DNA of 57,329 nucleotides, from assembly GCA_017961575.1 (NCBI GenBank), contig JAGCXA010000026.1, forward strand, positions 1 through 57,329, given 5' to 3'. Shown here piece after piece: positions 6,366 to 45,032 of the stretch. Source of the DNA: Clostridia bacterium. Lineage in GTDB: Bacteria > Bacillota > Clostridia > Oscillospirales > CAG-272. A program made the position numbers and the translations under genes. Numbering within the stretch: the first letter of the stretch is position 1; each line of letters opens with the position of its first letter. The notes under the pieces were generated by a model that saw nothing but the letters and a program-made list of their open reading frames with translations, did not search any database and was not told where the DNA came from.

Positions 6366-6446
6366 GGCGTCCCTCCTTTTTTCGGTTAGTTTGGCGCGAA
6401 TTCCGCCCGGTTATTCCGCACGCGAGCCCTTTTTGCGGTAAAACTA

Positions 6447-6475: not shown

Positions 6476-6506
6476 ACGGTTTCAGAGTGTGTGAAAGGAG
6501 AGGGCT

Positions 6507-31043: not shown

Positions 31044-31084
31044 AAAAAGGAGCGTCCGCGCACAAGGCGCGGGCGCTCCTTTTT
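31044..31084 (-). terminator. Terminator of ssrA
   Basis: On the minus strand, directly after CCA, AAAAAGGAGCG ... CGCTCCTTTTT forms a long stem with GCGC-rich interior and a closing T-run. Confidence 0.85.
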
Positions 31085-31452
31085 GGTGGATCTGAGGGGA
31101 ATCGAACCCCTGTCCGAAAACCGTCGGTATGACTTTCTTCGCGGGCAGTCGCTCTTTTGAAATTCCCTTCGCGCAGCACCGGGCGACAGGTTTTGCGGTC
31201 GGGTAGCCGTTTCGTCCGTGACCGGGTCAACGGCAAATCCCCGGTTCACGTGCACTGCTGATTTGACGCCGGGCGAGGTTCGCAGTCCTCCCTCACTCGA
31301 CGGGCGGCTTATGCCGCGGCACTGCCCTTAGGCAGCCATTGCAAGTTTCTTTTTAGAATCTGCGTTTAATTTTAGGTGAACCTTTTAACGGGATTGCTCG
31401 GCCCGCCGCGCTTATCATACTTTCAAATCCCCGTCGAAACCTTTACAGACCC
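31084..31452 (-). ncRNA. ssrA: tmRNA
   Basis: This 369-nt transfer-messenger RNA rescues stalled ribosomes. The mature 5' end GGGTCTG (31446-31452) pairs with CAGATCC before ACCA at the 3' end (G-U allowed once). The conserved GGTTTCGACGGGG follows the 5' strand, and GGTTCGATTCCCC forms the T-arm. CCA is encoded. The tag frame, read from GCA at 31363 to the TAA at 31328-31330, gives ADSKKKLAMAA, an 11-residue tag ending in the usual small hydrophobic residues. The resume codon is inferred from position and the LAxAA end. Confidence 0.95.
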
Positions 31453-31786: not shown

Positions 31787-31815
31787 TTGACAAACGACGA
31801 CGGGTAGTGTATAAT
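31787..31815 (+). promoter_or_regulatory. Consensus promoter of the c-di-GMP-controlled operon
   Basis: TTGACA (31787-31792) and TATAAT (31810-31815) with a 17-bp spacer, both perfect consensus. Transcription would start about 31822, just at the first aptamer. Confidence 0.9.
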
Positions 31816-31820
31816 GGGAC

Positions 31821-31908
31821 CAGATTAAAGGGCAAAGCAGTTGAAAGACTGTGACGCAAAGCTAGAGGGCCTTCACAAGTTATCTTGTAAGGTAGCCAGT
31901 TGCATCTG
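31821..31908 (+). promoter_or_regulatory. c-di-GMP-I (GEMM) riboswitch aptamer 1
   Basis: The P1 stem CAGAT / ATCTG closes the element. Inside are the conserved GGCAAA, a GAAA tetraloop hairpin, GTGACGCAAAGC, AGGGCC and AAGGTAGCCAG, in the order and spacing of the class I c-di-GMP aptamer. It is one of two copies 85 bp apart with nearly identical sequence. Confidence 0.95.
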
Positions 31909-31992
31909 ATTAAAAGGCAAAGCAGCCGAAAGGCTGTGACGCAAAGCTAGAGGGCCTTCACAAGATTACTTGTAAGGTAGCCAGTTGCATCA
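31907..31992 (+). promoter_or_regulatory. c-di-GMP-I (GEMM) riboswitch aptamer 2
   Basis: The second copy has GGCAAA at 31916, GAAA loop, GACGCAAAGC and GGTAGCCAGTTGCATCA, with P1 TGAT / ATCA. Differences from copy one are compensatory in the stem (CAGTT-GACTG becomes CAGCC-GGCTG) or sit in the variable arm. Its 3' edge (31981-31990) is also the 5' half of the terminator behind it. Confidence 0.95.
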
Positions 31993-32014
31993 CGAGTATG
32001 CGACTGGCGTTTTT
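31981..32014 (+). terminator. Riboswitch-controlled intrinsic terminator
   Basis: CCAGTTGCAT (31981-31990) pairs with ATGCGACTGG (31998-32007), one G-U, followed by CGTTTTT. The left arm belongs to aptamer 2, so the ligand-bound aptamer should block the terminator. An ON switch by c-di-GMP follows from this geometry. Confidence 0.82.
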
Positions 32015-32047
32015 CGTTATTTACGGCGAAAACGAAAGGGGAACCGG

Positions 32048-32815
32048 ATGGAAGAGTTTGACGCGCGTGTCAGTCTGATCGACGAAACGCTGAGCAGCGG
32101 ACTCGATCCCATTGAACTTCTCGCGACTCCGATCAACTCCCCCCTGACCGATCTTCCGGTCGCCTACCGCACCCGGCTCCGGATCAACAGCGTCGAGGTC
32201 GGCGTGATCGAGCCCGAGCAGTACGATCCGGTCGCTTCCCGCACTTCCCAATGCGTCTCCCTCGCCCTCTGGAACTTCCGTCGGGTCTGCGACCTGGCGA
32301 AGGACCTGCGCGAGATTTCCTCGGCGATCAGCTTCTTCACCGTCCGCACTCCACCCCGCATCCTGACGAAAGGAAAGATCGGGGACCTGGTCGAAACGGT
32401 ACTGAAAGACGCCGACTACGACGACCCCTCGAACGTCTGCTTCGAGTTCCCCCGCGAGAGCGTCTTCTCGGACACCGAGGCGATGGCGAACGGACTTCGC
32501 GTTCTGAAATCCTACGGCATCAAGTCCGCGCTCGTCGGTTACGGCGACGAGTTCTGCCCGGCTCCGCGGCTCGCCTCGCTCCCCTTCGACTACGTGATGC
32601 TCGACGATTCGGTCCTCGCCGATCTCATGAACCCCGATAAGGAACTTTCGGTCGAGGCGCTGATCAAATACGTCTCCACCTTCGGCACCGAGTGCATCGC
32701 GCTCGGAAGAACGACCGCCGAAGAGAGCGAACGGCTCGTCCGGATTCGGGCGTTCGGTTACGAAGACAAGGATCCGACGGTCATCACGGAGAGTGAACTT
32801 CGCGCCAAATTCTGA
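32048..32815 (+). CDS. Degenerate EAL-domain protein
   Basis: The 255-residue protein follows the EAL fold but lacks its catalytic residues. YRTRLRINSVEVGVIEPEQY replaces the EAL-motif strand; VCFEFPRES stands for the ExTES strand; LVGYGDEFCPAPRLASLPFD replaces DDFGTGYSSL; and YVMLDDSV stands for the K-x-D strand. Glu, Asn and Asp metal ligands are therefore missing, and phosphodiesterase activity is not expected. It may bind c-di-GMP, bind another operon product, or be a scaffold. The ATG at 32048 has AAAGGGG before it. It is the first gene behind the riboswitches and is 13 bp from the next gene. Confidence 0.78.
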   Translation: MEEFDARVSLIDETLSSGLDPIELLATPINSPLTDLPVAYRTRLRINSVEVGVIEPEQYDPVASRTSQCVSLALWNFRRVCDLAKDLREISSAISFFTVRTPPRILTKGKIGDLVETVLKDADYDDPSNVCFEFPRESVFSDTEAMANGLRVLKSYGIKSALVGYGDEFCPAPRLASLPFDYVMLDDSVLADLMNPDKELSVEALIKYVSTFGTECIALGRTTAEESERLVRIRAFGYEDKDPTVITESELRAKF

Positions 32816-32827
32816 CGGGAGGATCAA

Positions 32828-33598
32828 ATGACAAGAAATTCGATTTCGCGGTACATCCTCCGGTCTGCCGGCGAGGTCAAACGGTTCCGGATCCTGATGC
32901 GGGTCATACCGATCGTGATCGCGGTGCTGATCGCTCTGACGAGCGTCGTCTACGTTTCCTCGGTGATGTATAACCGCTACGGCAGTTACACGGTCACGGT
33001 CAATAAGTTCGATAACCTCAACTACTCCATCGCGCTCACCGAGTACATGATCGAGGACCCCGACGTCGAGGGAAAAATGATCCCCGGCAAATCGGTCGCC
33101 CGCCTGAACTCCAAAGCGTCCGAACGGATCCGCGATATGGACGGTGCGACGATCCCCGAAGACGTCGACCAGATCAACGGCGAACACAACGGAGAAAACT
33201 ACATCGCCTACACCTACTACCTCGTCAACAACGGCGAAAAGACGCTGACCTACGAATACAACCTCTACATTGTGAACACGACGAACGGCGTCGAAAAGGG
33301 AGTCCGCGTCCGGCTCTACGAAAACGGAGTCAAGACGACCTTCGCAAGGACCAAGACCGACGGGTCGGGACCCGAGGATGGAACGGAACCCTTCATGGGA
33401 GACACCACGATCGTCAGAAAACAGGTCAGCAACTTCGGACCCGGCGAGTACACCCGTTTCACCATCGTGATCTGGATCGAGGGAAACGACGACGACACGA
33501 CCGACGACATCATCGGCGGACAGTTCAAGGTGGATATGAAGGTCAACATCATCGGCGACGAAAAGGGAAAGCCGATCGACTTCGAGCAAAAATCCTGA
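32828..33598 (+). CDS. Membrane-anchored protein of the exported-fibre cluster
   Basis: The 256-residue protein has a basic N-terminus, one membrane helix at about 24-47 (IPIVIAVLIALTSVVYVSSV) and an extracellular domain of about 205 residues. Near the end it has FTIVIWIEGNDDDTTDD, like the RLW[LV]EGED-x-CNN stretch near the ends of the two exported proteins that follow. No cleavage site is evident, so it stays in the membrane and may anchor or initiate a fibre. GGGAGGATC precedes the ATG. The family is not recognised with certainty. Confidence 0.7.
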   Translation: MTRNSISRYILRSAGEVKRFRILMRVIPIVIAVLIALTSVVYVSSVMYNRYGSYTVTVNKFDNLNYSIALTEYMIEDPDVEGKMIPGKSVARLNSKASERIRDMDGATIPEDVDQINGEHNGENYIAYTYYLVNNGEKTLTYEYNLYIVNTTNGVEKGVRVRLYENGVKTTFARTKTDGSGPEDGTEPFMGDTTIVRKQVSNFGPGEYTRFTIVIWIEGNDDDTTDDIIGGQFKVDMKVNIIGDEKGKPIDFEQKS

Positions 33599-33672
33599 TT
33601 CGGTTATTCTTCCGGCAACGGAAAATAATATAACACCAATTTTGATTATTATTTTAAAAGGAGAAAAAACCA

Positions 33673-34584
33673 ATGAAAAAGCTCATTCCTGCTCTCGCGC
33701 TCCTGCTGGTCTCCGCTGTGATGCTGGCGACCTCCTCGTTCGCATGGTTCTCGATGAACACGACCGTTACGGTTACCGGTATGTCCGTGACCACGAAGGC
33801 GTCGAGCAACCTGCTGATTTCCGCTACCACTACGGAAGAGGACTTCAAGCCGGATCCGCTCACCCAGACCCGCAACGGTATCCTCGAGCCCGTTTCCACC
33901 ATCGACGGTTCCAACTTCTTCTACACCACCGACGCTAAGGCGGACGGCAGCAAGAACAAGGCGATCACCGGCGCCGGCGCCGTTCCTTACGTTGCCTATT
34001 CGGAGGACGCTACCCCTGCCATCGTCGGAACCAACTCCGGCAAAACCACCTATGACGACGAGTTCAACGAAGCGTATCAGATCGGTACTGTCTCTACCAG
34101 CAACGTCGCGTACGGCTACATCGATTACACCGTGTATCTGAAAGCGACCGCGAGCGAGAGAAGCAAACTGCTCCTTTCCACGGTTGATCTTCAGTACGAC
34201 GGCGGCGCCGTCACCGAGAAGGCTTGGAGAGTTGCGGTCTTCGCGCAGAGCGCTTCCACCGCTTCCGGCCTCACCGGGTCCGACACGCTGGTGACCATCC
34301 TTGAGCCCGCTTCCGCCGCGTACTTTGACGGAACCGCCGTCTCCGGCGCCGCCGCGAAAGCCGCCGTCAACACGAAGATTGACGACGAGGCGGTGATCGA
34401 CGCCGACGTCGCCGCGAACGCGACCATGTACTACAAGGTCATCGTTCGTCTGTGGCTCGAGGGCGAGGACACCACCTGCAACAACGAGACCTTCGCCGAC
34501 CTGACGGAAGATTACACCCTCGACCTTACGTTCGATCTCAAACCGTACGCCGACGCTGCGACCGGTGCTACCGTGATCAGCTGA
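33673..34584 (+). CDS. Exported protein with SipW-type N-terminus, putative fibre subunit A
   Basis: The 303-residue protein starts MKKLIPALALLLVSAV, then TSSFAWFSMNTTVTVTGM. A hydrophobic stretch ending in FAWFSMN is typical of substrates for SipW/ER-type signal peptidases in Clostridia, as in TasA/camelysin-like proteins. The mature part is rich in Thr, Ala and Asp, and ends with RLWLEGEDTTCNNETF. It has a strong AAAAGGAG ribosome site. It is a paralogue of the 302-residue protein two genes on: same N-terminus, ETV-STIDG / SSIDGS-FFYT, YGY[IV][DE]Y and the same C-terminal motif. Function is inferred: surface fibre or matrix component. Two ER-type signal peptidases are encoded in the cluster. 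Confidence 0.75.
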   Translation: MKKLIPALALLLVSAVMLATSSFAWFSMNTTVTVTGMSVTTKASSNLLISATTTEEDFKPDPLTQTRNGILEPVSTIDGSNFFYTTDAKADGSKNKAITGAGAVPYVAYSEDATPAIVGTNSGKTTYDDEFNEAYQIGTVSTSNVAYGYIDYTVYLKATASERSKLLLSTVDLQYDGGAVTEKAWRVAVFAQSASTASGLTGSDTLVTILEPASAAYFDGTAVSGAAAKAAVNTKIDDEAVIDADVAANATMYYKVIVRLWLEGEDTTCNNETFADLTEDYTLDLTFDLKPYADAATGATVIS

Positions 34585-34645
34585 ATCGACTGAACGGACT
34601 GAACGAACATCATTCTCAACTTCGGGTTGATTGATTTTGACGACG

Positions 34646-34679
34646 CGAAGGGGAGTGCCCGATCGGGGCGCCCCCTTCG
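34646..34679 (+). other. Stable hairpin between the two subunit genes
   Basis: CGAAGGGG ... CCCCTTCG with a GC-rich inner stem (GTGCCC / GGGGCGC) is followed not by a T-run but by AATGAAAAG. It may be an attenuator or an mRNA stabiliser that sets a high ratio of the first subunit. Confidence 0.6.
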
Positions 34680-34706
34680 TAATGAAAAGAAGGAGGTGCA
34701 ATAGAT

Positions 34707-35615
34707 TTGCGGAAATTCGTTCCCGTCTTTTGTATTCTTCTTCTTTTTGTCGTTTTATTGACTACGGCGTCGTTCGCCTGGCTGTCGATGAACGATCACA
34801 CGCGGGCGACCGGAATGCAGATCAACACGCTGGTTTCGACCAGCATTCTCGTTTCCGAAATCAACGAGGATCCGCTCTATAATCCCGGCTTGACGCAGGA
34901 TCGCACGGCGGTGCTTCAACCGGTTTCGTCCATTGACGGAAGCGCGTTCTTCTATACCGTCAACGCGGTTGCAACCGGCGCAAAGAACACGGGCAATTAC
35001 GTCGGGTATACCGAAACGGCGGGTCTGAACAACGACGGGGCGGGGAAGACGAAGTACGACGCCGCCTTCAATACCGCGTACAAGGTTCAGACGCCCGTGA
35101 CGACCGGAACCGTCGTTTACGGCTACGTGGAATACGTTTTCTATCTGAAAGCGACCAACGCGACTGACGTCGCCGCCGCTTTGAATATGACGAAATGCAA
35201 TCTGCTCTATAACGGTCAGCCGATCGCCGTCGACAACGGCGCCGAGGGACTTGCCGTCCGGGTCGCGATTTTCTCGCAGCCGGCGGAGCAGAACACCGAA
35301 AAAGCGGGCGACGGCAACCTGGTTACGATCCTGAAACTGCAGGACGCCGGAAACTTCACTTCAAACCGGGCGGTCAAGAACGAATCTTCGCTTGATACCG
35401 TAACGAACGCAAACGCAAACGCCGTCATCGACAGCGAGATTGCGGCGGGCGCGACCGAGTATCATAAAGTGGTCGTTCGTCTCTGGGTTGAGGGAGAGGA
35501 CGCCTCCTGCAACAACGAAACCTACGTGCAGCTGACAAACGCCTGGTCGCTCGATCTCAAGTTCGAACTTGGAGGATCCGTCGTGAACAAACTGGGTTCG
35601 GTATCCGAATCCTGA
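34707..35615 (+). CDS. Exported protein with SipW-type N-terminus, putative fibre subunit B
   Basis: The 302-residue protein starts from TTG at 34707, eight bases behind AGGAGGTG. The N-terminus has a hydrophobic run followed by TTASFAWLSMNDHTRATGM, matching the subunit A start. The body shares QPVSSIDGSAFFYT, VVYGYVEYVFYLKATNA and VVRLWVEGEDASCNNETY. Cys at the CNN motif is kept in both paralogues. As a tandem pair with similar length it looks like a major/minor subunit couple of an extracellular fibre. The role is inference; the paralogy is visible. Confidence 0.75.
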   Translation: MRKFVPVFCILLLFVVLLTTASFAWLSMNDHTRATGMQINTLVSTSILVSEINEDPLYNPGLTQDRTAVLQPVSSIDGSAFFYTVNAVATGAKNTGNYVGYTETAGLNNDGAGKTKYDAAFNTAYKVQTPVTTGTVVYGYVEYVFYLKATNATDVAAALNMTKCNLLYNGQPIAVDNGAEGLAVRVAIFSQPAEQNTEKAGDGNLVTILKLQDAGNFTSNRAVKNESSLDTVTNANANAVIDSEIAAGATEYHKVVVRLWVEGEDASCNNETYVQLTNAWSLDLKFELGGSVVNKLGSVSES

Positions 35616-35650
35616 CGTAAACGAACGGGATCCTTCCGGTAAGATAATTC

Positions 35651-35703
35651 AAAAACCGCAAAAAACCGCAAAAAAACCGCAAAAAAACCGCACCAAAAAC
35701 CGC
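35651..35703 (+). repeat. Short tandem repeat (A-rich)CCGC, five copies
   Basis: Copies of AAAAACCGC to AAAAAAACCGC, 9-11 bp long, fill 35651-35703 just before a terminator. Slippage during replication could change the number. Confidence 0.8.
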
Positions 35704-35707
35704 TCTT

Positions 35708-35750
35708 GAAGAACCTCCGGGATTCTCCGGGGGTCCTTCTTGTTTTTTTT
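35708..35750 (+). terminator. Terminator after subunit B
   Basis: AAGAACC-TCCGGG / CCGGGGG-TCCTTCTT with an ATTCT loop and a run of eight T. The remaining part of the 472-bp gap, up to the promoter at 35957, shows nothing coding. Confidence 0.75.
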
Positions 35751-35956
35751 GTGCAAGAGGACGGGATCGCGCGCGCGTCAGCGCGCGACGTGGGAACGCC
35801 GCCGAAAAAAGACCGGAAGGGAAGACGGGGACGGGAAAATTACGCCCCACCCCCTTGAAAATGACGACAAAAACGCGCGAAACGCCCCCGATTTCGTCGC
35901 TTTGCGTGAAAAAACCGTTTTTTCTCGCCCTTTTTCCGACTTTTTTTTAATAATAC

Positions 35957-35985
35957 TTGACTTTTTGCAAATTGCTCGTTATAAT
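35957..35985 (+). promoter_or_regulatory. Second promoter of the cluster, ahead of the first ER-type signal peptidase
   Basis: TTGACT (35957-35962), 17 bp, TATAAT (35980-35985). Transcription would start about 100 bp before the ATG, so the second half of the cluster may not depend on the riboswitch. Confidence 0.8.
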
Positions 35986-36087
35986 ATTTGTGATAGAAAA
36001 TAGAGAAGTATCGCATCGGAAAGGCGCGCGCAAATTCGCCTTCCGTAAACTCCGAATTCAACCGGGAAAGGAACGGTAATACATTTT

Positions 36088-36921
36088 ATGGAGACAACCA
36101 AAAAAACCTCGGTCAAGAAGGTTCTGTCGATTGTCGGCAACACGGTTCTCTGGCTTTTCGTGGCGTTCGCAATCGTAATTACGGTGATTGTCTTCGCCTC
36201 CAACAACAACAAATCCGAGGACAATTCGCTTTCCAGCATCGGGGGGCTTGCCATTGTCACGATCAGTTCCGACTCGATGAGCCGCAGCCCGAAAGAAGAG
36301 GATTATCAGTCGGGCGGACGTCTTGAGGGGAAAACCGGGTTCAAAAAAGGAGCCCTGATTTTCGTCAACAAGTTGACCGACGCCGAGAAAGAGAAGCTTG
36401 CCGTCGGCGACGTGATTACCTTCCGCGTTGATCTGGATCACGACGGTAAGGAAGAGTTCAATACCCACCGTATCATCGACGTTCACGAGCATGAAGGCAA
36501 ACTCTATTTCGTGACGCAGGGGGATCACAACGAATTCGCCGACGGCGTATATTCCGAGTCCAACTCTGCCCACGCTTCCAGCGGATACGTCGTCACCGCT
36601 TCCAAGATCGAGGGGAAATGGAACGGCCGTAAGATCGCCGGGGTCGGTAAATTCCTGGCTTTCTTGCAGACCCGGACCGGATTCTTCGTCGTCATCATCC
36701 TTCCGTTGATCGCTTTCTTCCTCTACGAACTGATCCGTTTCGTTCTCGTCATCCTCTCGCTGAGAGGGAAGAAAACCGAGGACGAGATCCGGCAGAAGGT
36801 GATGGAGGAACTTCTCCGCGCGCAGCAAGCGGGGCAGCCCGCCGCGCCCGAAACGAAAGCGACGCAGACGGACGCTCCCGCGGAGAAACCCGCAGAGGAG
36901 CCGAAAGAGCCGAAAGAATAA
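36088..36921 (+). CDS. ER/SipW-type signal peptidase I, copy A
   Basis: The 277-residue protein has membrane helices at about 18-37 and 205-228. The ER-type dyad is present: Ser63 in ISSDSMSR and His127 in FNTHRIIDV, with Asp146 in FVTQGDHNE. His instead of Lys marks the archaeal/ER/SipW class. The C-terminus is a charged cytoplasmic tail ending in a Pro/Glu-rich PAEKPAEEPKEPKE, similar to the repeats in the DUF2357 protein of this cluster. It is predicted to cut the FAWFSMN-type exported proteins upstream. Confidence 0.85.
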   Translation: METTKKTSVKKVLSIVGNTVLWLFVAFAIVITVIVFASNNNKSEDNSLSSIGGLAIVTISSDSMSRSPKEEDYQSGGRLEGKTGFKKGALIFVNKLTDAEKEKLAVGDVITFRVDLDHDGKEEFNTHRIIDVHEHEGKLYFVTQGDHNEFADGVYSESNSAHASSGYVVTASKIEGKWNGRKIAGVGKFLAFLQTRTGFFVVIILPLIAFFLYELIRFVLVILSLRGKKTEDEIRQKVMEELLRAQQAGQPAAPETKATQTDAPAEKPAEEPKEPKE

Positions 36922-36933
36922 GTTTTTTCCCGA

Positions 36934-36959
36934 TCCCGCGGGCGCACGCCCGCGGGAGT
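36934..36959 (+). other. GC-rich palindrome after signal peptidase A
   Basis: GATCCCGCGGGCG / CGCCCGCGGGAGTC forms a strong hairpin without a T-run. It may stabilise the mRNA or slow transcription. Confidence 0.55.
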
Positions 36960-36988
36960 CGGATCCCGCGAATTGATTTTTACGATGC

Positions 36989-37027
36989 CTGTTTCGACGC
37001 CCTCGGCTCGAAACAGTCAGATTTTTT
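36989..37027 (+). terminator. Terminator before the AAA+ gene
   Basis: CTGTTTCGA / TCGAAACAG, nine perfect pairs with a ten-base loop, then TCAGATTTTTT. A separate promoter for the ATPase gene is expected in 37028-37100 but no clear -35/-10 pair is evident. Confidence 0.75.
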
Positions 37028-37120
37028 GTTTCGCGCGCGCGGGCGCGAAATGCGCGTATTATATAGTTAAATATAACGAATCGGCGTTTTTGCCGAAAAC
37101 CAACGGTAAAGGGGAGTATC

Positions 37121-38743
37121 ATGGGCGCGTTTCTTGACTGGTTCTTTGAGTTCATGACAACCATGCTGAAAGACGGCGTGTTGCGGGTCTTCACCGGAAT
37201 TTTCTGGGGGATCGTGCAGATCTTCAACATACCCGACTATATTTCGATCTTCAATTCCCACAGCAGCGGGTTCTCCGCCGTCGAGTGGGTGCTTTCGATC
37301 TTTGCGATGATCGTCATTTTCCTGATCTGGGCGCTGCTTATCACGCTGCTCGTTTTCGCTCTCCGCAAGTATTTCCGTTTTCGCCGTTCGATCGTCGGAA
37401 ACGAGGATCTGCTCGAAGAACTCGCCGATATGCACCGCGACGTTCTCCGGCTGACCAAGGAGAAGGAGCGCATTATGGCGCTGAAAATCGGGCAGACCTC
37501 GATCTCGGTCGACGAACTGAACGCGATCCTGAACTCCGACGACGACAACACCCCCGCCTCCATCGAGGAGGCGCAGGCGGCGGGTCTTGCGCGCGTCGCG
37601 GGCGAGAACGGCGGCGGGGAAGGCGGCGGCTCGGGCGAAGGATCGGGCGCGGGCGCCGTCTCCACCAACCGCTTCTTCCGGCTCTCCGCCGTGGACGAGA
37701 AGTACCGCTTCTACGTCGAGCCCGAATACGACCGTTCGATGTCGCTCTCCGAGATCTGCGACGACTTCCGCAACTTTGCGTGCAGCAAGATGCGGCTTTA
37801 CTACGAGATCCGCACCATCCGGCTGATGTTCGCGGGGCTTGCCTCGACCAAGATGATCCTTTTGCAGGGTATTTCGGGTACCGGTAAAACCTCGCTCCCG
37901 TATTCGATGGGTAAGTACTTCAAAAACGACGCGACCATCGCGTCGGTACAGCCGTCGTGGCGTGACCGCACCGAACTTTTCGGTTACTTCAACGAGTTCA
38001 CCAAGAAGTTCAACGAGACCGAGTTCTTGCGCCGGATCTACGAGGCGTCCTACAACGACGACATCAACGTCATCGTCCTCGACGAGATGAACATCGCGCG
38101 CGTCGAGTACTACTTCGCCGAGATGCTCTCGGTTTTGGAAATGCCCGACCCGAACGAGTGGAAACTCGAACTCGTCCCGGCGTCCTGGCCCGACGACCCG
38201 GTACACCTCGTCGACGGGAAACTGCAGATCCCGCAGAACGTCTGGTACGTCGGAACGGCGAACAACGACGACTCGACCTTCGCCGTCTCGGATAAGGTCT
38301 ACGACCGTGCGCTGGTCATCAACCTCGACAGCAAGGGCGTTCCCTTCGAGGCGCCCGAGACCGAGGCGAAGCGCATCAGTTACAAGTACATCGAGGGGCT
38401 GTATCAGAAGGCGTTCAAGGATCACCCCGTCAGTCAGAAGATCCTCGACGACATCGCGAAACTCGACCTCTACGTCATCGAGCATTTCCGGGTCGCGTTC
38501 GGTAACCGTATTATGAAGCAGATGTTGCTCTTCGTGCCGGCTTACGTCGCCTGCGGCGGCACCGAACTCGACGGCATCGACTACGTGCTCGCGACCAAGG
38601 TTTTCCGTAAATTCGAGGGATTGAACCTCTCGCTGATCCGCGACGAGATCCGGGGTCTGATCGCCTATCTCGACGCCGTCTTCGGGCGCGGGCAGATGAA
38701 GGAATGCATCGTCTACCTCGAACGCCTGCAAAAGATGTTCTGA
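37121..38743 (+). CDS. Membrane-tethered McrB-like AAA+ ATPase
   Basis: The 540-residue protein begins with membrane segments (about 53-80 is clearest), a coiled region and a Gly/Ser-rich linker (about 161-180). Then comes an AAA+ domain with Walker A GISGTGKTSLPY (from about 250), Walker B VIVLDEMNIARVEYYFAEML (from about 317) and the sensor segment YVGTANNDDSTFAVSDKV. The DEMN-x-ARVE Walker B and the N-N-DDST-x6-D pattern are those of the McrB family. No DNA-binding domain is visible. It precedes a DUF2357/McrC-like gene, so the two probably form a McrBC-type ATPase complex at the membrane. Start AAAGGGGAG-N4-ATG. Confidence 0.82.
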   Translation: MGAFLDWFFEFMTTMLKDGVLRVFTGIFWGIVQIFNIPDYISIFNSHSSGFSAVEWVLSIFAMIVIFLIWALLITLLVFALRKYFRFRRSIVGNEDLLEELADMHRDVLRLTKEKERIMALKIGQTSISVDELNAILNSDDDNTPASIEEAQAAGLARVAGENGGGEGGGSGEGSGAGAVSTNRFFRLSAVDEKYRFYVEPEYDRSMSLSEICDDFRNFACSKMRLYYEIRTIRLMFAGLASTKMILLQGISGTGKTSLPYSMGKYFKNDATIASVQPSWRDRTELFGYFNEFTKKFNETEFLRRIYEASYNDDINVIVLDEMNIARVEYYFAEMLSVLEMPDPNEWKLELVPASWPDDPVHLVDGKLQIPQNVWYVGTANNDDSTFAVSDKVYDRALVINLDSKGVPFEAPETEAKRISYKYIEGLYQKAFKDHPVSQKILDDIAKLDLYVIEHFRVAFGNRIMKQMLLFVPAYVACGGTELDGIDYVLATKVFRKFEGLNLSLIRDEIRGLIAYLDAVFGRGQMKECIVYLERLQKMF

Positions 38744-38802
38744 CGTAAAACGAATCCGGGTAAAGCACCCGAAAAATGGCGGCGACGCCGGAAAGGAGCG
38801 TT

Positions 38803-41583
38803 ATGGACGAAGAGCGAAAACTGCGCGGAACATCGGATGACGCTCCTGTTCTTTCGGAGACCGATTCGACCTCCGAGGCGCACGAGGAGAGTTATACCCC
38901 CGCACGGTATACCTTCGTGGCGGAAAACGAGGATCCCACCGTCCGCGACAAGTACGGGATGGTCTACGACGGGATGAATCAACTCTCCGCCGACATCCGG
39001 CGCGACGTCGATATTTTCTCATCTGTCGAGGATATGATCCGCCGCGGATCGGGCGAGATCTCCCTGAAACGGCAAATGATGCGGAAAACGCTCGACGCCA
39101 CGTGGATCAAGGTCATCGAGGACTGCATCATCCCGCTCGACAACGTGATCCGGAAGCCCCGCCGTTTCATCGAGGAAAACGAGGCGGTCTTACCGATCGA
39201 ACTTTCGCGCAACATCACCAGTCGCTCGATGCGGCACCTTGCCCAGCATACCGACTACATCAGCAAGATCGAGGGCGACACCATCACGCCGTCCAAGATC
39301 CTGAACGTTTTTCGCGACGAGACGGTGCAGACCTACGAAAACCGGTTCGTCAACACCCTGATCAACCGGCTCTATATCTTCGTTTCGCGCCGCTACGACG
39401 CGATCCGGGAGAACGGGCGCGCCTCGGCGACGTCGGTCCTTTCCTACGAGACGAAGTTCGAGACCGCGTCGGTCAAGGGAAAAATCCAACTCAATATGGA
39501 GATCTCGGCGTCGTCCGAGGTCGAGGGCGCGCGCACGAACTCGCACGAAGAGGCGGAACTCTGGGACCGTCTTGAACATCTGAAACAGGTCGTTTCGGCG
39601 TACGCCACCTCTCCCTTCGTGCAGATGATGGGGAAGAGTTACGTTCGTCCCCCGATCATGCACACCAACGCCATCAACAAGAACCGCGACCTGCGCCAAT
39701 GCGTCGCTCTCTGGGAGTTCATCGAGAGTTACGAGGGCGCGGGCTACGAGTTGTCGGTGAAGGACACCGCCGAGAAGATGGACGACCGCTACCTCGACGA
39801 GATGCTTTCGTCGCTCGCCGTGCAGTACTGCGTCTTCCGCTACAATATGTCGGCGGATCTCTCCGACGAGATGATCCTCTCCGAGAGCGAGGACGGCGAA
39901 CCGTTTACGCCGAAGTTCCTCGATTCGCTCGAAGAATACGAATCCGACGACTTCAACGTCCACGATACTTCCTACAAGAAGTATATGGCGGTCAACGGTC
40001 TGAACCCGAAGCGGAAACTCACCGTCGGCGAGTGGCGGATCCGCCGCGCGATCGACGTCGCGCTCAAAGCCGACCGTATCCTCGAACTGAAACGGATCGC
40101 CGACGAAGCCGAGCGCAGGAAACGCGAGGAGGAAGAGGAAGCCCGCCTGCGGATGGAGCAGGAGGAGACCGCACGCCTCGAACGCGAAGCCGAAGAGGCG
40201 CGCGAGAGACAGCAGAAGGAAGCCGAAGCCGAAGCCATCGAAGAGATGCAGAACAAGTCCGAAGAGGAGGAGTCGCTGCGTCGCGTAGCCGAGGAGGCGG
40301 CGGAGAGCGTCGAGAGCGAAGCCGAACGCGAAAAGGCGATCGAGGAGTCCGAGGAGGAACGCTACGCCAAACGGCTTGAAGAAGAAAAGAAACGCGCCGA
40401 GGAGGTCGACCGCCGCCGCGAGGAAGCCGAGCGCGGCTTGACCGAAACCGAGACGCCGATCCTCTCCGCGTCCGAGATCGTCGAACGCAAAAACGAGGAC
40501 GAAGAGCAGGAGAGAATCGAGGAACAGCGCGACCGCCGCGAGGCGATCGAGCGCGAAAAACGCGAGGCGGAGGAAGCCGCCGCGCGCGAAACGTTCCTGT
40601 CCGAGGAAGCCAAAAAACGCGGCGAGAGCGAGGAAACCGATCTTGCCGAGAGCGAGTTGACCGAAAAAGAACTCGAAGAGATGGCGGCGCTCCGCGAACG
40701 CGAAGCCGAGGATGCCCGCCGGCGCGAGGAAGAAGCGCGTCTTGAACGCGAAAGAGCGGAAGAGGAACGGCTTGCCCGTGAGGAAGCCGAACGCCTCGAA
40801 CGCGAAAACGAACTCGACGAAGCCGCCCGCTTCATCCGCGAGGAGGAAGAAGAGGCGCTGCGCCGCGAATTGGAAGCAGCCGAGCGGGAGGCGCAGGAGG
40901 AATCCGAACGTCGCCGCCGCGAATACGAGGAGGCGCGCCGTCAGGCGGAGGAGGAGCGCAAAGCGCTCGCGTCGGACGCCGCGTCCGAGGACGAGAAGGA
41001 GATCGAGCGTCTCCGCCGCGAACAGGAAACCGAGACGAAAGAAGAGGCGGAACGCCGCCGCGACGTCTATCTCGACGCTCTCCGCCGCGCGGAAGAGAGC
41101 GAGAAAGCCGAAGAAAAGCCGGAAGAACCCGTCGAAGAACCTGCGGAAGAACCCGCGGAAGAACCCGTGGAAGAACCCGTGGAAAAGCCCGCGGAAGAAC
41201 CTACGGAAGAGCCCGTGGAAGAACCCGCGGAAGAACCTGCGAAGGAACCCGTGGAGCAACCCGCGGAAGAACCCGTGGAAAAACCCGTGGAAGAACCCGT
41301 GGAAGAACCCGTGGAAAAACCCGTGGAAGAACCCGCGGAAGAGCCCGTGGAAGAACCCGCGATCAAACCGACGGAATCGTCGACGGAAGTGCTCGAAACG
41401 CTTGCTTTGAGACAATTGGTGAAGAAACCGACGGCAAAGGTCGGCGTGAAACGGGGACCGAAGACCGCGACCAACACCCGGAAGAAAACCCGGATGAAGC
41501 CCGGCGCGAAGAAGACCGGGCAAAAGAAGGTCAAACCCGGCGAAACGAACGTCTCGCCGAGAAAGAAGAACCGGAAGAAATAA
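38803..41583 (+). CDS. DUF2357/McrC-like protein with coiled coil, EPVEE repeats and basic tail
   Basis: The 926-residue protein has four parts. Residues about 1-430 resemble the DUF2357 domain of McrC-type partners, with TYENRFVNTLINRLYIF (177-193) its best landmark. Residues 430-766 are a Glu/Arg-rich coiled coil. Residues 773-853 are tandem EEPVEEPAEEP units, encoded by a 12-bp DNA repeat. The last 55 residues are Lys/Arg-rich. The PD-(D/E)xK nuclease expected in McrC is absent; the C-terminal half is instead a long rod that may connect membrane and cytoplasm or bind a surface protein. Assignment to DUF2357 rests on one clear motif, position after the McrB-like gene, and general composition. 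The ATG at 38803 has GGAAAGGAG before it; an upstream ATG (38776) is worse. Confidence 0.68.
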   Translation: MDEERKLRGTSDDAPVLSETDSTSEAHEESYTPARYTFVAENEDPTVRDKYGMVYDGMNQLSADIRRDVDIFSSVEDMIRRGSGEISLKRQMMRKTLDATWIKVIEDCIIPLDNVIRKPRRFIEENEAVLPIELSRNITSRSMRHLAQHTDYISKIEGDTITPSKILNVFRDETVQTYENRFVNTLINRLYIFVSRRYDAIRENGRASATSVLSYETKFETASVKGKIQLNMEISASSEVEGARTNSHEEAELWDRLEHLKQVVSAYATSPFVQMMGKSYVRPPIMHTNAINKNRDLRQCVALWEFIESYEGAGYELSVKDTAEKMDDRYLDEMLSSLAVQYCVFRYNMSADLSDEMILSESEDGEPFTPKFLDSLEEYESDDFNVHDTSYKKYMAVNGLNPKRKLTVGEWRIRRAIDVALKADRILELKRIADEAERRKREEEEEARLRMEQEETARLEREAEEARERQQKEAEAEAIEEMQNKSEEEESLRRVAEEAAESVESEAEREKAIEESEEERYAKRLEEEKKRAEEVDRRREEAERGLTETETPILSASEIVERKNEDEEQERIEEQRDRREAIEREKREAEEAAARETFLSEEAKKRGESEETDLAESELTEKELEEMAALREREAEDARRREEEARLERERAEEERLAREEAERLERENELDEAARFIREEEEEALRRELEAAEREAQEESERRRREYEEARRQAEEERKALASDAASEDEKEIERLRREQETETKEEAERRRDVYLDALRRAEESEKAEEKPEEPVEEPAEEPAEEPVEEPVEKPAEEPTEEPVEEPAEEPAKEPVEQPAEEPVEKPVEEPVEEPVEKPVEEPAEEPVEEPAIKPTESSTEVLETLALRQLVKKPTAKVGVKRGPKTATNTRKKTRMKPGAKKTGQKKVKPGETNVSPRKKNRKK
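41119..41361 (+). repeat. 12-bp minisatellite inside the DUF2357 gene
   Basis: About 20 copies of a GAACCCGTGGAA-type unit encode EEP(V/A) steps. Units differ by G/C exchanges and K/E or Q/E changes. Copy number could vary between strains without a frameshift because the unit is a multiple of three. Confidence 0.9.
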
Positions 41584-41613
41584 CGTAAAAGGCGTGAAAG
41601 GGGGGGAAGACCG

Positions 41614-42288
41614 ATGGCGGTTTCAGACCAAGCGAAACGGAAATCGAAAATGACCCCCGGCAATATCGCCTACGCGGTTCTGATCCTTCTTCTCGTCGTC
41701 CTCGTGCTCTATCTTCTGATCGCGCGGATGACGGGGAATATCCCCACCTTTTTCGGCTACTCGGTCGTGCGGATCGTCACCGGGTCGATGGAGCCGAAGA
41801 TCCCGGTCGGTTCTTTCGTCCTGATCAAAAGGATCGCGCCCGGGGAGGTCGGAGAGGGGGATATCATCACTTTCTATACCGACGATCCCGATCCCGCCAT
41901 CGCGGGAATGACGGTCACCCACCGCGTACTGTCGGTCGAGACGACCGAGGACGGAAAACTCGTTTTCAGGACCAAGGGCGACAACAACCCCGTCCCCGAC
42001 GTCTATCCCGCGACGGGAGAGGGACTCGTCGGACGCTACGTTTGCGGGGCGTTGCCGCTCACGGCGATCGTCACGCTGTTCCGCACGCATCTGCCCATCG
42101 CGCTGCTCGTGACCGTTCTTATCCCGATGATCGTCCTGACGCAAAACGGAATCCGAAAGAGAATGAAGGCGCTCTCCTCCGAACGCGAGGAACACATCCG
42201 ACAGCGGGTGGCGGAGGAACTTGCCCGCTTAAAAGAGAAACAGAACGAGAATACCAACCGCCCCGACGACGGGAATCATCAACCGTAG
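41614..42288 (+). CDS. ER/SipW-type signal peptidase I, copy B
   Basis: The 224-residue protein has membrane helices at about 18-37 and 150-170. Catalytic residues of the ER type are Ser58 in IVTGSMEPKIPVGS, His103 in VTHRVLSV and Asp123 in RTKGDNNPVPD. It differs enough from copy A to have separate substrates. A Glu/Arg-rich C-terminal tail (HIRQRVAEELARLKEKQ) resembles the tail of copy A. It starts 31 bp after the DUF2357 gene, from the ATG following GGGGGGGAAG. Confidence 0.88.
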   Translation: MAVSDQAKRKSKMTPGNIAYAVLILLLVVLVLYLLIARMTGNIPTFFGYSVVRIVTGSMEPKIPVGSFVLIKRIAPGEVGEGDIITFYTDDPDPAIAGMTVTHRVLSVETTEDGKLVFRTKGDNNPVPDVYPATGEGLVGRYVCGALPLTAIVTLFRTHLPIALLVTVLIPMIVLTQNGIRKRMKALSSEREEHIRQRVAEELARLKEKQNENTNRPDDGNHQP

Positions 42289-42311
42289 CACAGCTGAAAG
42301 GAAGAGTCGCC

Positions 42312-42557
42312 GTGTTTGAAAGATTCAAGATGCAAAAACAAATCAAAGTCATTCGTCAAAGGATCGAGTTCCTTGAACAGAAGCGCGCGAGAAGCCAAGC
42401 GGCGCTCGTCGACGCGATCCTGAGAAAAGTGGATCCCGACGACGAGGACGTCGAGTATTTCAACCAATTCACCGGCGAGATCGAGCGCCTTCGCGCCGAT
42501 ATGCACGAACTGGAAGCGGAACTCTTCGCCGACAAAAAGAAAAAAGAGAACAAATAA
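42312..42557 (+). CDS. Small coiled-coil protein
   Basis: The 81-residue protein starts with GTG at 42312, behind AAAGGAAGAG. It is almost entirely charged and helical (QKQIKVIRQRIEFLEQKRA, EIERLRADMHELEAELFAD), with heptad spacing of Leu and Ile. No family is recognised. It sits between signal peptidase B and the phosphodiesterase in the same operon and may be an adaptor. An upstream ATG in frame at 42042 lies inside the signal peptidase gene and is not favoured. Confidence 0.72.
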   Translation: MFERFKMQKQIKVIRQRIEFLEQKRARSQAALVDAILRKVDPDDEDVEYFNQFTGEIERLRADMHELEAELFADKKKKENK

Positions 42558-42584
42558 CGAATCGCAAAGAGAGAACGAGACGAG

Positions 42585-45032
42585 ATGAAGAATCAGAAGA
42601 TCAAAAAGATCCTCTATACGGCGGCCCTGGTCGGGACGGCGATTCTTCTCGTCGTCTCGATCATCTACTTCCTTTCGATCATCATCCGTTTCCGCTCCGA
42701 TCTGACCGAGACGACCGAGTCGCTTTCCCTGCAAATGGCAAACAGCGCCGCGAACGATATCAACCTCGTGCTGGCGACCGAGCTTGCCCGCGTCGACGCG
42801 ATGGCGGAAGAAATCGCGTTTTACCACGAGTCGGAGGACGACGAGGAGGAAACGTACTGGCGCTCCACCGCAAAAGGGGCAATCGAGCGCCAGTTGCAGG
42901 ATTACCGTTCCAACCGTGAGCATACGGCGTATATCGCCGCCGACCTCCGGTATATCCGAAAAGGAATCGAATACGACAGTTCCGGCGAAATGATCTCCGC
43001 CACCGAAAAAAAGAGCAAATCGATCGAACGTGTAATGGACTCCGACGTGCCGGTTTTTTCGGGCATCTTCGAGGGGAACTACTTGACCGGGATCGTTCGT
43101 CAGTTCGTCCTCTGGTATCCGTTCCAAGAGGAACAAGAGGCGTGCATCGAAGGTATTGTGATCTACTATTTGTCCGACGTGTTTTTCTCCTCGAACTCGT
43201 TCTACCGCGAGGGCGTTCAGAACCCCGATGAAGCCGAGAAACCGGCGGAGCAGGAGACCGGGCGGAAGGAGGCGTTCACCAACGAGGCGGCGTTCTCCTG
43301 CCTGATCTCGCGCCACGAATCCGGGGACACGTCGTGGGTGATCGATCTGATCGGACGGAACGCGACCAACGATCTGAACTTTTCGCCGCCCGACCAGATT
43401 TTTAAAGAACTCGACAAACTGACGCACGGCGCGGCGGGGATCAAATACCTGCAAAGCGGCGTCGATCAGAAAGACGCGCGCGTCGCGACCGTCTCGATCT
43501 CCTCGAACAAGTACGCGATCGCGACGTCGCCCGTGCCGCTGACCGACGGGGAACTCACGATCGTCGAGATTTACGATCCCTCGGTCATCTACCGCACAAG
43601 TTACAGCTTTATGGGACAGATGGAGGGGGCGCTGATCTTCCTCGGCGTCATCTTCGTCACGATCCTCGTCTACCTGAACTATCAGCGCACCCATCTGCGC
43701 GACAAGAAGGAACTCGAAGAGCAGATCGACTCGGTCTCCGGGTGTCTGACCTACCGCTATTTCCTGAGTCACTCCGACGAACTGGTCGACAAGAACCCGA
43801 CCAACCGCTACGCCGTTCTGATGCTGCGCGTCAACTACCTGCAATACCTCGGGCAACTCTACGGCGACGAGATCTTTTTGAAGGTCATCCGTTTCGTCGG
43901 GGAAGTGTTCGAGAAACTGCTCGACCCCACCGAGACCTACGGTTATATCTCCGACAGTAACTTCGCCGTGCTCCTCCACTATCAGGAGGAGGTCGAACTG
44001 ATGAACCGTCTGCGGATGATCAACGCGATCATCTACAACTTCCCCGAACTCAAAACCAAAAACAACCACGTCAAGGTCACCTTCGGTATCTATCTCGTCC
44101 GTCCCGAGGACGAATTCTCCACCCTCCAATGCCTTGAAAAGGCGGGGATGGCGCTCCGCTCGACCACCTTCTCGGTCGACTCGCTCTTCCGTTTCTACAA
44201 CGACGAACTCGGCGCCGACTCGAACCGGCAGGCGGAGATCGAACTCAAAATGGAGAACTCGCTTCAAAACGACGAGTTCAAGGTCTTCTATCAGCCGAAG
44301 TACAACCTGAAAAAAGAGACGATCGACTCGGCGGAGGCGCTGGTGCGTTGGTACGATCCCGAACTGCGCCGCTACTATCCGCCCGCCGACTTCATCCCGC
44401 TTTTCGAGGAGAACGGGTTTATCGTCAAACTCGACCACTACGTCTTCGAGGCGGTCTGTAAGTTCGCCTCCGATCGGATCAAGGCAGGGAAGCCGCTCGC
44501 GCCGATCTCGGTCAACGCTTCGCGCGTGACCGCGGGCGAACCCGACTTTGTCCGCTACTACCTCGCCGTCAAGCGGAAATACGACGTTCCGAACAACCTG
44601 CTGACGATCGAATTCACCGAATCGACCGCGATGGACAACTACGAGTCGCTGCGCCGGATCGTCGCCGATCTGAAAGCCGGCGGCATCGGCAGTTCGGTCG
44701 ACGACTTCGGCTCCGGCTTCTCCTCTTACAGTATTCTGAAAGAGTTGAAGATGGACGAACTGAAACTCGACCGCTTCTTCATCACGGCGGGCATTGACGC
44801 CGAACGCGACGACGCGCTACTCAACTCGGTCATCAAACTCGGTCAGAAACTGGGGATGAAGGTGACGCAGGAGGGCGTGGAATCGGTCGAGATGATGGAT
44901 CGTCTGCGCCGTGCGGGATGCAACACCGTGCAGGGGTATTACTACTCGCGCCCGATCACGCAGGACGATTTCGTCGCCTTCCTCGATCGCGAACTCGGGG
45001 AAAAGGAGACCGACGGCGAAGAGAAGAAATAA
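42585..45032 (+). CDS. Membrane c-di-GMP phosphodiesterase (EAL) with degenerate GGDEF
   Basis: The 815-residue protein has two membrane helices (about 8-33 and 343-366) with an extracytoplasmic domain of about 310 residues between them. A degenerate GGDEF domain lies at about 380-540, where the signature is replaced by YISDSNFAVLL. The C-terminal EAL domain (about 560-805) is intact: AEALVRW, SVNASR, LTIEFTEST, VDDFGSGFSSY, ELKLDRFF, TQEGVES and VQGYYYSRPI. All expected metal and catalytic residues are present, so c-di-GMP hydrolysis is likely. As the last gene of a cluster that begins with c-di-GMP riboswitches it would lower the signal that turns on the front part. The ATG at 42585 has AGAGAGAACGAG before it. 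Confidence 0.9.
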   Translation: MKNQKIKKILYTAALVGTAILLVVSIIYFLSIIIRFRSDLTETTESLSLQMANSAANDINLVLATELARVDAMAEEIAFYHESEDDEEETYWRSTAKGAIERQLQDYRSNREHTAYIAADLRYIRKGIEYDSSGEMISATEKKSKSIERVMDSDVPVFSGIFEGNYLTGIVRQFVLWYPFQEEQEACIEGIVIYYLSDVFFSSNSFYREGVQNPDEAEKPAEQETGRKEAFTNEAAFSCLISRHESGDTSWVIDLIGRNATNDLNFSPPDQIFKELDKLTHGAAGIKYLQSGVDQKDARVATVSISSNKYAIATSPVPLTDGELTIVEIYDPSVIYRTSYSFMGQMEGALIFLGVIFVTILVYLNYQRTHLRDKKELEEQIDSVSGCLTYRYFLSHSDELVDKNPTNRYAVLMLRVNYLQYLGQLYGDEIFLKVIRFVGEVFEKLLDPTETYGYISDSNFAVLLHYQEEVELMNRLRMINAIIYNFPELKTKNNHVKVTFGIYLVRPEDEFSTLQCLEKAGMALRSTTFSVDSLFRFYNDELGADSNRQAEIELKMENSLQNDEFKVFYQPKYNLKKETIDSAEALVRWYDPELRRYYPPADFIPLFEENGFIVKLDHYVFEAVCKFASDRIKAGKPLAPISVNASRVTAGEPDFVRYYLAVKRKYDVPNNLLTIEFTESTAMDNYESLRRIVADLKAGGIGSSVDDFGSGFSSYSILKELKMDELKLDRFFITAGIDAERDDALLNSVIKLGQKLGMKVTQEGVESVEMMDRLRRAGCNTVQGYYYSRPITQDDFVAFLDRELGEKETDGEEKK

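Follow-up and report, generated by a model that had tools for sequence, protein, structure and literature searches.

The window analysed here, a stretch of 57,329 nucleotides from a Clostridia bacterium of gut or rumen, contains a compact operon of ten co-directional genes preceded by a regulatory leader (Table 1). From the letters alone, the original prediction had named a consensus promoter with two c-di-GMP-I riboswitches, a degenerate EAL protein and an intact EAL phosphodiesterase, a membrane protein followed by two exported paralogues with FAWFSMN and FAWLSMN N-termini, and two ER-type signal peptidases, and all of these are borne out by the analysis.

Table 1. Features of the operon and its leader, in positions of the window
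Feature	Position	Strand	Basis or remark
Sigma-70-type promoter	31787..31815	+	TTGACA-17-TATAAT, 12/12 consensus bases
c-di-GMP-I aptamer 1	31821..31907	+	70.9 bits
c-di-GMP-I aptamer 2	31906..31992	+	74.5 bits
Intrinsic terminator hairpin	31980..32008	+	5' arm formed by the 3' end of aptamer 2; GTTTTT follows
EAL1, degenerate EAL-domain protein	32048..32815	+	EAL 87 bits, catalytic motifs lost
TMx, membrane-anchored member of subunit family	32828..33598	+	helix 6-47, then mostly beta in model
FAW1, exported subunit	33673..34584	+	SipW-type signal peptide, SSFAWFSMN
FAW2, exported subunit, FAW1 paralogue	34707..35615	+	ASFAWLSMN
Second promoter-like site before SIP1	35957..35985	+	11/12; consensus match only
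SIP1, ER-type (Ser/His) signal peptidase, SipW-like	36088..36921	+	TIGR02228
McrB-like NTPase, N-terminal hydrophobic stretch and charged linker	37121..38743	+	Walker A GISGTGKTS, Walker B LDEMN, signature NNDD
McrC-like DUF2357 protein, long charged tail, EPVEE repeats	38776..41583	+	Pfam
SIP2, second ER-type signal peptidase	41614..42288	+	TIGR02228
Small charged, possibly coiled-coil protein, 81 residues	42312..42557	+	GTG start
EAL2, GGDEF domain (degenerate by eye) and intact EAL phosphodiesterase domain	42585..45032	+	EAL 190.9 bits, motifs intact

The NTPase, initially described as a McrB-like membrane ATPase, is indeed similar to E. coli McrB (E 0.0016 with the single sequence, 2e-6 with a profile) and scores under the Pfam cut-offs; its membrane anchoring is suggested by an N-terminal part in which long hydrophobic and charged conserved stretches are recognizable by eye in the alignment, and no FtsB-type Pfam match was obtained for it. 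The protein encoded next carries a DUF2357 domain at residues 121-220 (35.2 bits against a Pfam cut-off of 23.3) together with the predicted EPVEE repeats, and what had been called a rod corresponds to this domain plus a long tail, rich in Glu, Lys, Arg and Ala, of a kind seen by eye on most DUF2357 proteins in the alignment. Pfam matched no nuclease in the ten operon proteins, the McrC-like protein yielding DUF2357 and a PT repeat only, and the PADLOC REase_II match within it (E 1e-9, residues 796-869) coincides with the EPVEE repeat. The small protein, predicted to be a coiled coil, is charged and may form one; its start is most likely the GTG at 42312, because the N-termini of its relatives point there.

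To place these genes in a wider context, relatives were grouped as a clade (L032-L082 and the window; support 99/96 for the NTPase), a sister group (L084-L086) and others (L087-L109), with the contig-truncated L057, L063 and L073 grouped as clade members. Counts exclude L032, L033, L039 and L045, whose NTPases are at least 98% identical to that of the window, as well as L083, which is like L084; L050 (92%) and L057 (89%) are close to the window and hence not independent. L057 and L039 come from one genome, and the contig pairs L062/L063, L061/L064 and L072/L073, each from one genome, were counted by locus. Places L090-L109, which served as controls, are 20 of 44 DUF2357 places and were chosen by hand (12 low-scoring, 8 high-scoring); L092 and L097, with no NTPase match, are not among the controls. 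Within the clade, an ER-type peptidase gene lies upstream of the NTPase gene in 40 of 42 loci, the DUF2357 gene follows it in 40 of 40, and downstream there is another peptidase gene in 34 of 34, whereas the McrB-like controls outside the clade have such a peptidase in neither position (0/20 upstream, 0/20 downstream) and the three distinct loci of the sister group have the NTPase without any such peptidases or subunits. Subunit-like exported proteins accompany 26 of 30 clade loci and none of 17 controls, with L040 having no subunit gene within 10 kb upstream. The neighbourhood is preserved over a range that reaches from Clostridia to records bearing the titles Izemoplasmatales and Bacillales, and the recurrence of the same gene order in dozens of loci indicates an arrangement beyond chance. 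Clade homologues do not lie consistently in restriction islands devoid of these neighbours, the finding that would have refuted the original prediction, although distant relatives do lack the neighbours, and a restriction island is rejected for the clade because no nuclease was found by Pfam and the neighbouring genes differ. Carriage on plasmids or phages is also rejected, as the 263 plasmid and 2 phage records all cover less than 80% of the NTPase query, at identities below 60%.

The two peptidases of the window match the archaeal/ER-type family TIGR02228 at 54.3 and 107.8 bits (cut-off 51.85), they are the only two such matches in the genome, and the Ser/His dyad is present in all 82 rows of the peptidase alignment, a number that includes near-duplicates of the window's sequences. 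Likely substrates lie upstream. TMx, FAW1 and FAW2 matched no Pfam family, profiles of the subunits matched no relevant solved structure in the PDB, and a genome-wide search with the subunit profile recovered these three proteins only. The FAW signal profile nevertheless aligns with the camelysin/TasA profile at 92.9% probability over 32 columns (hhalign), and the mature domains of FAW and TMx align with each other at 98.5% over 216 columns. Compared with the TasA profile, the mature parts show weak similarity (12.9% probability for TMx, 2.1% for FAW), which exceeds that of 99 of 100 column shuffles; the one remaining shuffle is an edge artefact of 6-7 columns. PF12389, the mature domain of TasA and camelysin, has no match in the window's genome, and direct TasA homology of the mature subunits is rejected in view of the weak profile signals and the lack of a relevant PDB match. 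An alternating hydrophobic pattern follows the Trp in 49 FAW sequences, and the predicted model of TMx, of moderate confidence (pLDDT 74.7), consists mostly of beta strands after the helix. Type IV pili were considered and rejected for the operon, as the Pfam matches of its ten proteins include no PilB-type ATPase, PilC or prepilin peptidase.

Both aptamers of the leader score above the RF01051 gathering score of 35 and are identical at 78 of 87 bases; the scan of the whole window listed aptamer 2 alone, overlapping matches apparently having been dropped. No terminator belonging to aptamer 1 was found between the two. Letters at the 3' end of aptamer 2 also form part of the downstream terminator, such that c-di-GMP should turn the operon on, and as judged from this arrangement the operon is probably activated by the nucleotide. 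Such an overlap is present in 10 of 10 loci examined, drawn from the 15 riboswitch-bearing loci (all but L052, L058, L059, L060 and L065), with the satellite leader inspected in addition; in L053, L070 and L071 it amounts to no more than the final 6-7 bases of the aptamer match. Tandem class-I aptamers are known from the triple-tandem Bc3-5 riboswitch of Bacillus thuringiensis, which controls cspABCDE and in which c-di-GMP activates transcription; unlike Bc3-5, in which each unit is described with an expression platform, the two aptamers of the window appear to share a single terminator (PMC4759541). Among 31 scanned clade loci (the window and 30 others), 15 carry a riboswitch, Bacilli included, and 16 do not, several of these having upstream genes in view. 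Across 23 genomes, 15 of at least 29 aptamers lie upstream within the cluster, against roughly 0.15 expected by hand arithmetic, in a search that scored up to 120 first-look candidates per genome and whose absences are provisional. In the window's genome, two of the three detected c-di-GMP-I aptamers are inside the operon, and the third precedes exported proteins of 296 and 1753 residues, homologues of which reside inside the cluster in relatives. Promoter-like sites are not enriched over the whole region (5, against 3.7 in shuffles).

The EAL proteins at the two ends of the cluster differ: the full catalytic set is found in 0 of 18 upstream EALs and in 17 of 19 terminal ones. Set aside from this count were three EALs that are neither the first nor the last cluster gene and look intact (L035 3329, L036 1718 and L059 19859), a fragment (L059 2-622) and that of the control L099. 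The terminal EAL gene is missing in 15 of 33 loci and the upstream one in 12 of 30. With 7 GGDEF matches in the window's genome, c-di-GMP is probably made by the organism.

The core of this gene set already has a name, contrary to the original prediction, which knew of no described system with the set: a 2024 eLife paper (PMC11090510) introduces it as CoCoPALM, spending a few sentences on it and leaving the group to a later publication. There, CoCoPALM systems are characterized by an NxD signature, with D or E as the usual next residue, by associated signal-peptidase genes, by fusion of the NTPase to an FtsB-like transmembrane and coiled-coil segment, and by coiled coils on the McrB and McrC homologues (PMC11090510). 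The operon resembles them in its McrB-like NTPase of NxD type, hydrophobic in its N-terminal part, in its McrC-like DUF2357 partner with a charged tail and in its adjacent signal-peptidase genes; its subunits, riboswitch and EAL pair, and the satellite giant of the genome, go beyond the main text of that paper (PMC11090510). Every clade row covering the signature reads N-[N/K]-D-D-S-T, of which NNDD alone would also fit NxxD; outside the clade, L087-L089 read N-x-D-Q, and L098, L100 and L101 N-x-D-E or N-x-D-D, the search pattern having no match in the remaining outside rows. Dedication of a SipW-type peptidase to exported subunits is a feature shared with tapA-sipW-tasA of Bacillus subtilis and sipW-bsaA of Clostridium perfringens, yet the cited accounts mention no NTPase or DUF2357 gene and place these operons under the control of SinR or a two-component system (PMC9674648, PMC7395162). 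The signal class is likewise common to both and the donor-strand principle is proposed for the window's subunits, whose mature parts, in contrast, fall outside the camelysin/TasA Pfam family. With CoCoNuT type IV restriction systems and E. coli McrBC the window shares a homologous NTPase and the DUF2357 domain, but no nuclease was found, and the neighbours are peptidases and exported proteins, not methyltransferases, nucleases or kinases.

Taken together, we consider it fairly probable that the locus serves to build a TasA-like surface fibre, is activated by c-di-GMP, brings an assembly NTPase of its own and belongs to the CoCoPALM group. The predicted surface-fibre machine employing a McrBC-type NTPase outside restriction is supported by the conserved neighbourhood, the dedicated peptidases, the homology among subunits and the riboswitch; the fibre itself and the motor function of the NTPase are proposed from sequence and context. 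Weighing against this reading are the lack of Pfam and relevant solved-structure matches for the subunits, the weak similarity of their mature parts to TasA, the moderate TMx model, the loci that have no riboswitch or no EAL gene at one end, the sister group and L040, and the description of TasA and BsaA fibres without an NTPase. In such a machine, c-di-GMP would stabilize the tandem aptamers and thereby block the overlapping terminator, allowing the operon to be read. FAW1 and FAW2, whose signal class is apparent, would be exported through the SipW-type signal peptide and cut near the FA/W(F/L)SMN junction by the two dedicated peptidases, themselves of recognizable ER type, and the new N-terminal strand, with its alternating hydrophobic pattern, could be donated to the next subunit as in TasA. 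TMx, a homologue of the subunits, may stay in the membrane as the base or nucleator of the fibre. From gene context, the membrane-anchored NTPase and its DUF2357 partner might assemble into a ring on the cytoplasmic side, beneath the site of fibre assembly, with NTP hydrolysis driving or policing subunit entry. Judging by their motifs, EAL2 would lower c-di-GMP as feedback, and the catalytically dead EAL1 may sense the nucleotide or act as a scaffold.

An alternative that we regard as unlikely, and nonetheless take seriously, is that the fibre assembles spontaneously and that the NTPase and DUF2357 protein carry out quality control, or extraction of jammed or unprocessed membrane precursors. 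BsaA, which needs no sortase, polymerizes alone when made in E. coli (PMC7395162), so that a motor is not required in principle, and TasA assembles by donor-strand exchange (PMC9674648). The N-terminal hydrophobic stretch of the NTPase, noted by eye, and the peptidase genes that flank it in almost every clade locus would also suit a role in quality control. Against it, we know of no McrB relatives that act as unfoldases. The strict pairing of NTPase and McrC-like partner is compatible with either a motor or a quality-control function.

Envelope-linked anti-phage defence, in which the NTPase and DUF2357 protein would detect infection or react to it and exported proteins would serve as receptor shields or sensors, appears improbable. 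The McrBC descent of the NTPase and its match to the PADLOC candidate-defence model PDC-M26A (E 5e-37) favour it, as do two plasmid-borne outside relatives in CoCoNuT-like operons, where an AAA-domain gene stands beside the NTPase and DUF2357 genes in both cases and kinase and phosphatase genes are present in one. The PDC-M26A match and these operons also weigh against the fibre reading. However, the operon has no nuclease family by Pfam, the subunit homologues accompany the NTPase clade and not the controls, and, to our knowledge, c-di-GMP riboswitch control and dedicated signal peptidases would be unusual for a defence system. Very improbable is that two independent operons, one comprising EAL1, TMx, FAW1 and FAW2 for a matrix under c-di-GMP control and one holding the peptidase, NTPase and DUF2357 genes behind a promoter of their own, lie side by side for reasons unrelated to function, as a 472-bp gap with the promoter-like site before SIP1 and a further aptamer between the modules in genome G019 might suggest, given that the neighbourhood persists from Clostridia to the Izemoplasmatales- and Bacillales-titled records and that the genome's two ER-type peptidases lie in the second half while the proteins needing them lie in the first.

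Returning to the c-di-GMP-activated fibre operon, what it likely adds to the naming of CoCoPALM is the cargo and the control of the gene core, neither of which figures in the main text of that paper (PMC11090510). A broader proposal, which we hold tentatively and which could well prove wrong, is that these loci represent an undescribed class of fibre assembly in monoderms, in which a McrBC-type restriction NTPase and its activator, recruited to the membrane, power or gate the assembly of TasA-like subunits that two dedicated ER-type peptidases process, with the c-di-GMP-I riboswitches detected in the window's genome all devoted to the machine and its satellite giant. Few outputs of c-di-GMP are known to us in gut bacteria, and this operon would add one. 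If the fibre reading is correct, the NTPase of a restriction system would have been turned into a part for cell-surface assembly, an uncommon passage from defence to a structural role; Clostridia of gut and rumen and Izemoplasma-like Bacilli would possess an energized assembly route for TasA-like fibres; and CoCoPALM, which the papers found do little more than name, would be given a cargo, an input signal and a mechanism that can be tested.

The NTPase marks a clade of loci with a conserved neighbourhood. NTPase homologues were sought regardless of their neighbours, and the open reading frames around them were then labelled with iterated profiles; matches turned up in 23 of the 197 genomes searched from the order, and a GTDB-based collection supplied 33 loci. 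In a tree of 65 NTPase domains, some of whose outside rows are long branches, the window's branch falls within one clade of 41 rows (support 99/96), which is adjoined by a four-row sister group (99/91), and CoCoNuT-like relatives from plasmids and a phage scaffold (CoCoNuTs are related type IV restriction systems) lie outside it. One such locus (L112) just outside the clade, from MT835511, a record titled as a phage (an unverified scaffold), carries a DUF2357 gene together with an NTPase resembling those of CoCoNuT and CoCoPALM, the latter being the published name for the NTPase/DUF2357/signal-peptidase gene core. Neighbourhoods were counted where flanks sufficed, among 48 clade loci, 21 control loci with an NTPase match and three distinct sister loci. 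The original prediction had proposed such a count as its check, and ER-type peptidases and subunits do accompany the NTPase in the clade and not in controls: a peptidase lies within 1.5 kb upstream in 40/42 clade loci (missing in L037 and L056), 0/20 controls and 0/3 sister loci, and FAW proteins (paralogous exported subunit-like proteins) or TMx (their membrane-anchored relative) in 26/30, 0/17 and 0/3. A downstream peptidase was found in 34/34, 0/20 and 0/2, and an adjacent DUF2357 gene in 40/40, 8/20 (the DUF2357 profile being narrow) and 2/3. EAL genes are more variable, upstream in 18/30, 1/17 and 0/3 and downstream in 18/33, 0/19 and 0/2. Among the four clade loci missing FAW/TMx (L040, L068, L069, L073), a giant exported protein takes their place in all except L040.

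Every feature listed for the window's operon in the original prediction, from the promoter and aptamers to the ten genes, is present, the genes all lying 3' of the aptamers on the same strand. Searches of Pfam and NCBIfam identified two signal peptidases (TIGR02228), an EAL and a GGDEF-EAL protein, and DUF2357; for the small protein and the three subunit-like ones, neither database gives a family above cut-off. A tmRNA gene sits directly upstream of the promoter, an order repeated in L050 and L057, and a T-box leader precedes a sodium-solute-symporter-like gene (family assigned by eye).

Coordinates of features in the window and in compared loci
Feature	Location	Detail
tmRNA gene	window 31084-31452	opposite strand
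Promoter	window 31787-31815	12/12 consensus bases
c-di-GMP-I aptamer 1	window 31821-31907	70.9 bits (gathering score 35)
c-di-GMP-I aptamer 2	window 31906-31992	74.5 bits (gathering score 35)
Terminator hairpin	window 31980-32008	5' arm is the 3' end of aptamer 2
T-box leader	window 49290-49544	106 bits
Satellite operon	L135 (contig C17 of own genome, G000) 777-7095	aptamer with overlapping terminator, then two exported-protein genes
c-di-GMP-I aptamer	C17 777-851	first element of the satellite
Gut-1 RNA (RF01706)	L065 8908-8988, 9081-9153, 11185-11264	inside cluster
Gut-1 RNA (RF01706)	L070 585-660	
Divergent GGDEF protein	L070 890-2272	123 bits

Because the terminator draws its 5' arm from the aptamer, the ligand-bound aptamer and the terminator should be mutually exclusive, so that, as read from base pairing, the riboswitch should be an ON switch for c-di-GMP. 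A terminator-like hairpin overlapping the aptamer 3' end recurs in each of the 10 loci inspected (Clostridia through to a Bacillales assembly), the overlap comprising just the last 6-7 bases in L053, L070 and L071, and again in the C17 leader. The window's two aptamers are identical at 78/87 bases; no terminator was found between them, and they thus seem to share one. Class-I tandem riboswitches that activate transcription are already known (PMC4759541).

In an all-Rfam scan of the window and 30 clade loci, 15/31 proved to carry an aptamer of the c-di-GMP-I or c-di-GMP-I-GGC family (the window, then 5/8, 4/8, 2/7 and 3/7 by batch), two of the 15, L050 and L057, being close kin of the window. 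Of the 23 genomes in which the NTPase search had a match, 10 together carry at least 29 class-I aptamers. In 8 genomes, 15 of the 29 are placed no more than 17 kb upstream of the NTPase and on its strand (read from maps), against an expectation of about 0.15, calculated by hand from 20 kb per genome on one strand and 46 Mb. The Rfam scan found no aptamer in L074-L082, and among the candidates scored genome-wide 8/9 of their genomes gave no class-I match, the ninth (G038) having two on another contig. These aptamer-free loci and genomes indicate that the predicted switch is a feature of part of the NTPase clade. Three class-I aptamers in L129 (genome G019) and four in L130 (genome G003) stand upstream of one NTPase in each case, ahead of successive modules, with opposite-strand genes, one FAW-like, between those of L130. 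The Gut-1 RNA matches of L065 lie between peptidase, NTPase and DUF2357 genes, and the divergent GGDEF protein of L070, directly upstream of a riboswitch-led cluster, is a possible local source of c-di-GMP.

Within the window's own genome the peptidase and subunit parts are concentrated in the operon, which holds both ER-type signal peptidase model matches and all FAW profile matches (FAW1, FAW2 and, weakly at 27.3 bits, TMx); PF09823 occurs once, and the degenerate operon GGDEF is one of seven. The sole other c-di-GMP-I aptamer detected, in an assembly 94% complete with 120/160 first-look candidates scored, is that of C17, where it precedes 296-aa and 1753-aa proteins with SipW-like N-termini (by eye). 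Since in G003, G019, G028, G044, G047 and L058 homologues of both belong to the cluster or adjoin it, all three detected class-I aptamers are, by gene context, predicted to serve the operon or its satellite.

The operon ATPase scores below Pfam cut-offs, and its proposed likeness to McrB is upheld by a PDB search that matched it to McrB of E. coli (E 0.0016 as a single sequence, 2e-6 as a profile). Its Walker A and Walker B motifs are both intact, and its N-x-D-D signature is the NxD form that section 7 of PMC11090510 assigns to the CoCoNuT branch; the alignment places a long hydrophobic stretch and then a charged conserved one at the N-terminus. Pfam recognises no nuclease in the DUF2357 protein, whose terminal tail is variable and mainly charged.

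In most FAW proteins the sequence opens with a hydrophobic stretch that closes with (S/T)(F/Y)AW(F/L), and the FAW profile aligns with the camelysin/TasA signal region (profile built from PF12389 members of 16 loci) at 92.9% probability over 32 columns. Hydrophobic residues occupy positions 2, 4, 8, 10, 13, 15 and 17 past the Trp in 57-98% of 49 FAW sequences, with mostly polar positions between, and this strand pattern stands where TasA carries its donor strand (residues 28-38, PMC9674648). TMx lacks the motif and retains its membrane helix. Its homology to the mature domain of FAW proteins (98.5% probability over 216 columns) is accompanied by a C-terminal W-x-E-G-x-D signature; the structure model of TMx (pLDDT 74.7, pTM 0.66) shows one long helix and, after it, mainly beta strands. 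The mature domains resemble TasA weakly, and we do not claim membership of that family.

The proposed pairing of a degenerate first EAL protein with an intact terminal phosphodiesterase recurs: in a comparison grouped by hand, with five rows set aside, 0/18 upstream EAL-like proteins and 17/19 terminal domains keep all six catalytic sites, the exceptions (L042, L043) deviating at the DDFG site. Neither gene is universal among clade loci. With the sites lost upstream and kept terminally, the upstream protein, at the head of the cluster, could plausibly sense c-di-GMP or act as a scaffold, and the phosphodiesterase at the cluster's end could plausibly provide feedback.

The original prediction knew of no described system with this gene set. 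That does not hold for the core, already named CoCoPALM in PMC11090510 (preprint PMC10542128); for the subunits, ON switch, EAL pair and satellite, no published description was found in the texts available. Among the matches listed for McrB/signal peptidase/pilus and for c-di-GMP riboswitch/SipW, no title or abstract start held the full set.

The sister group (L083/L084, L085, L086) contains no SipW-type peptidases. In L084 and L085 large proteins that contain a transglutaminase core (74.6 and 83.1 bits) lie in the vicinity of the NTPase. The NTPase of L085 and L086 adjoins an adhesin-like protein of 1003 aa, whose L086 copy was the one run against Pfam; L084 and L086 each have a second NTPase, that of L086 cut by the contig end. 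This group is possibly a second surface-assembly system, and such a further surface-linked role for the NTPase would lend support to the overall proposal.
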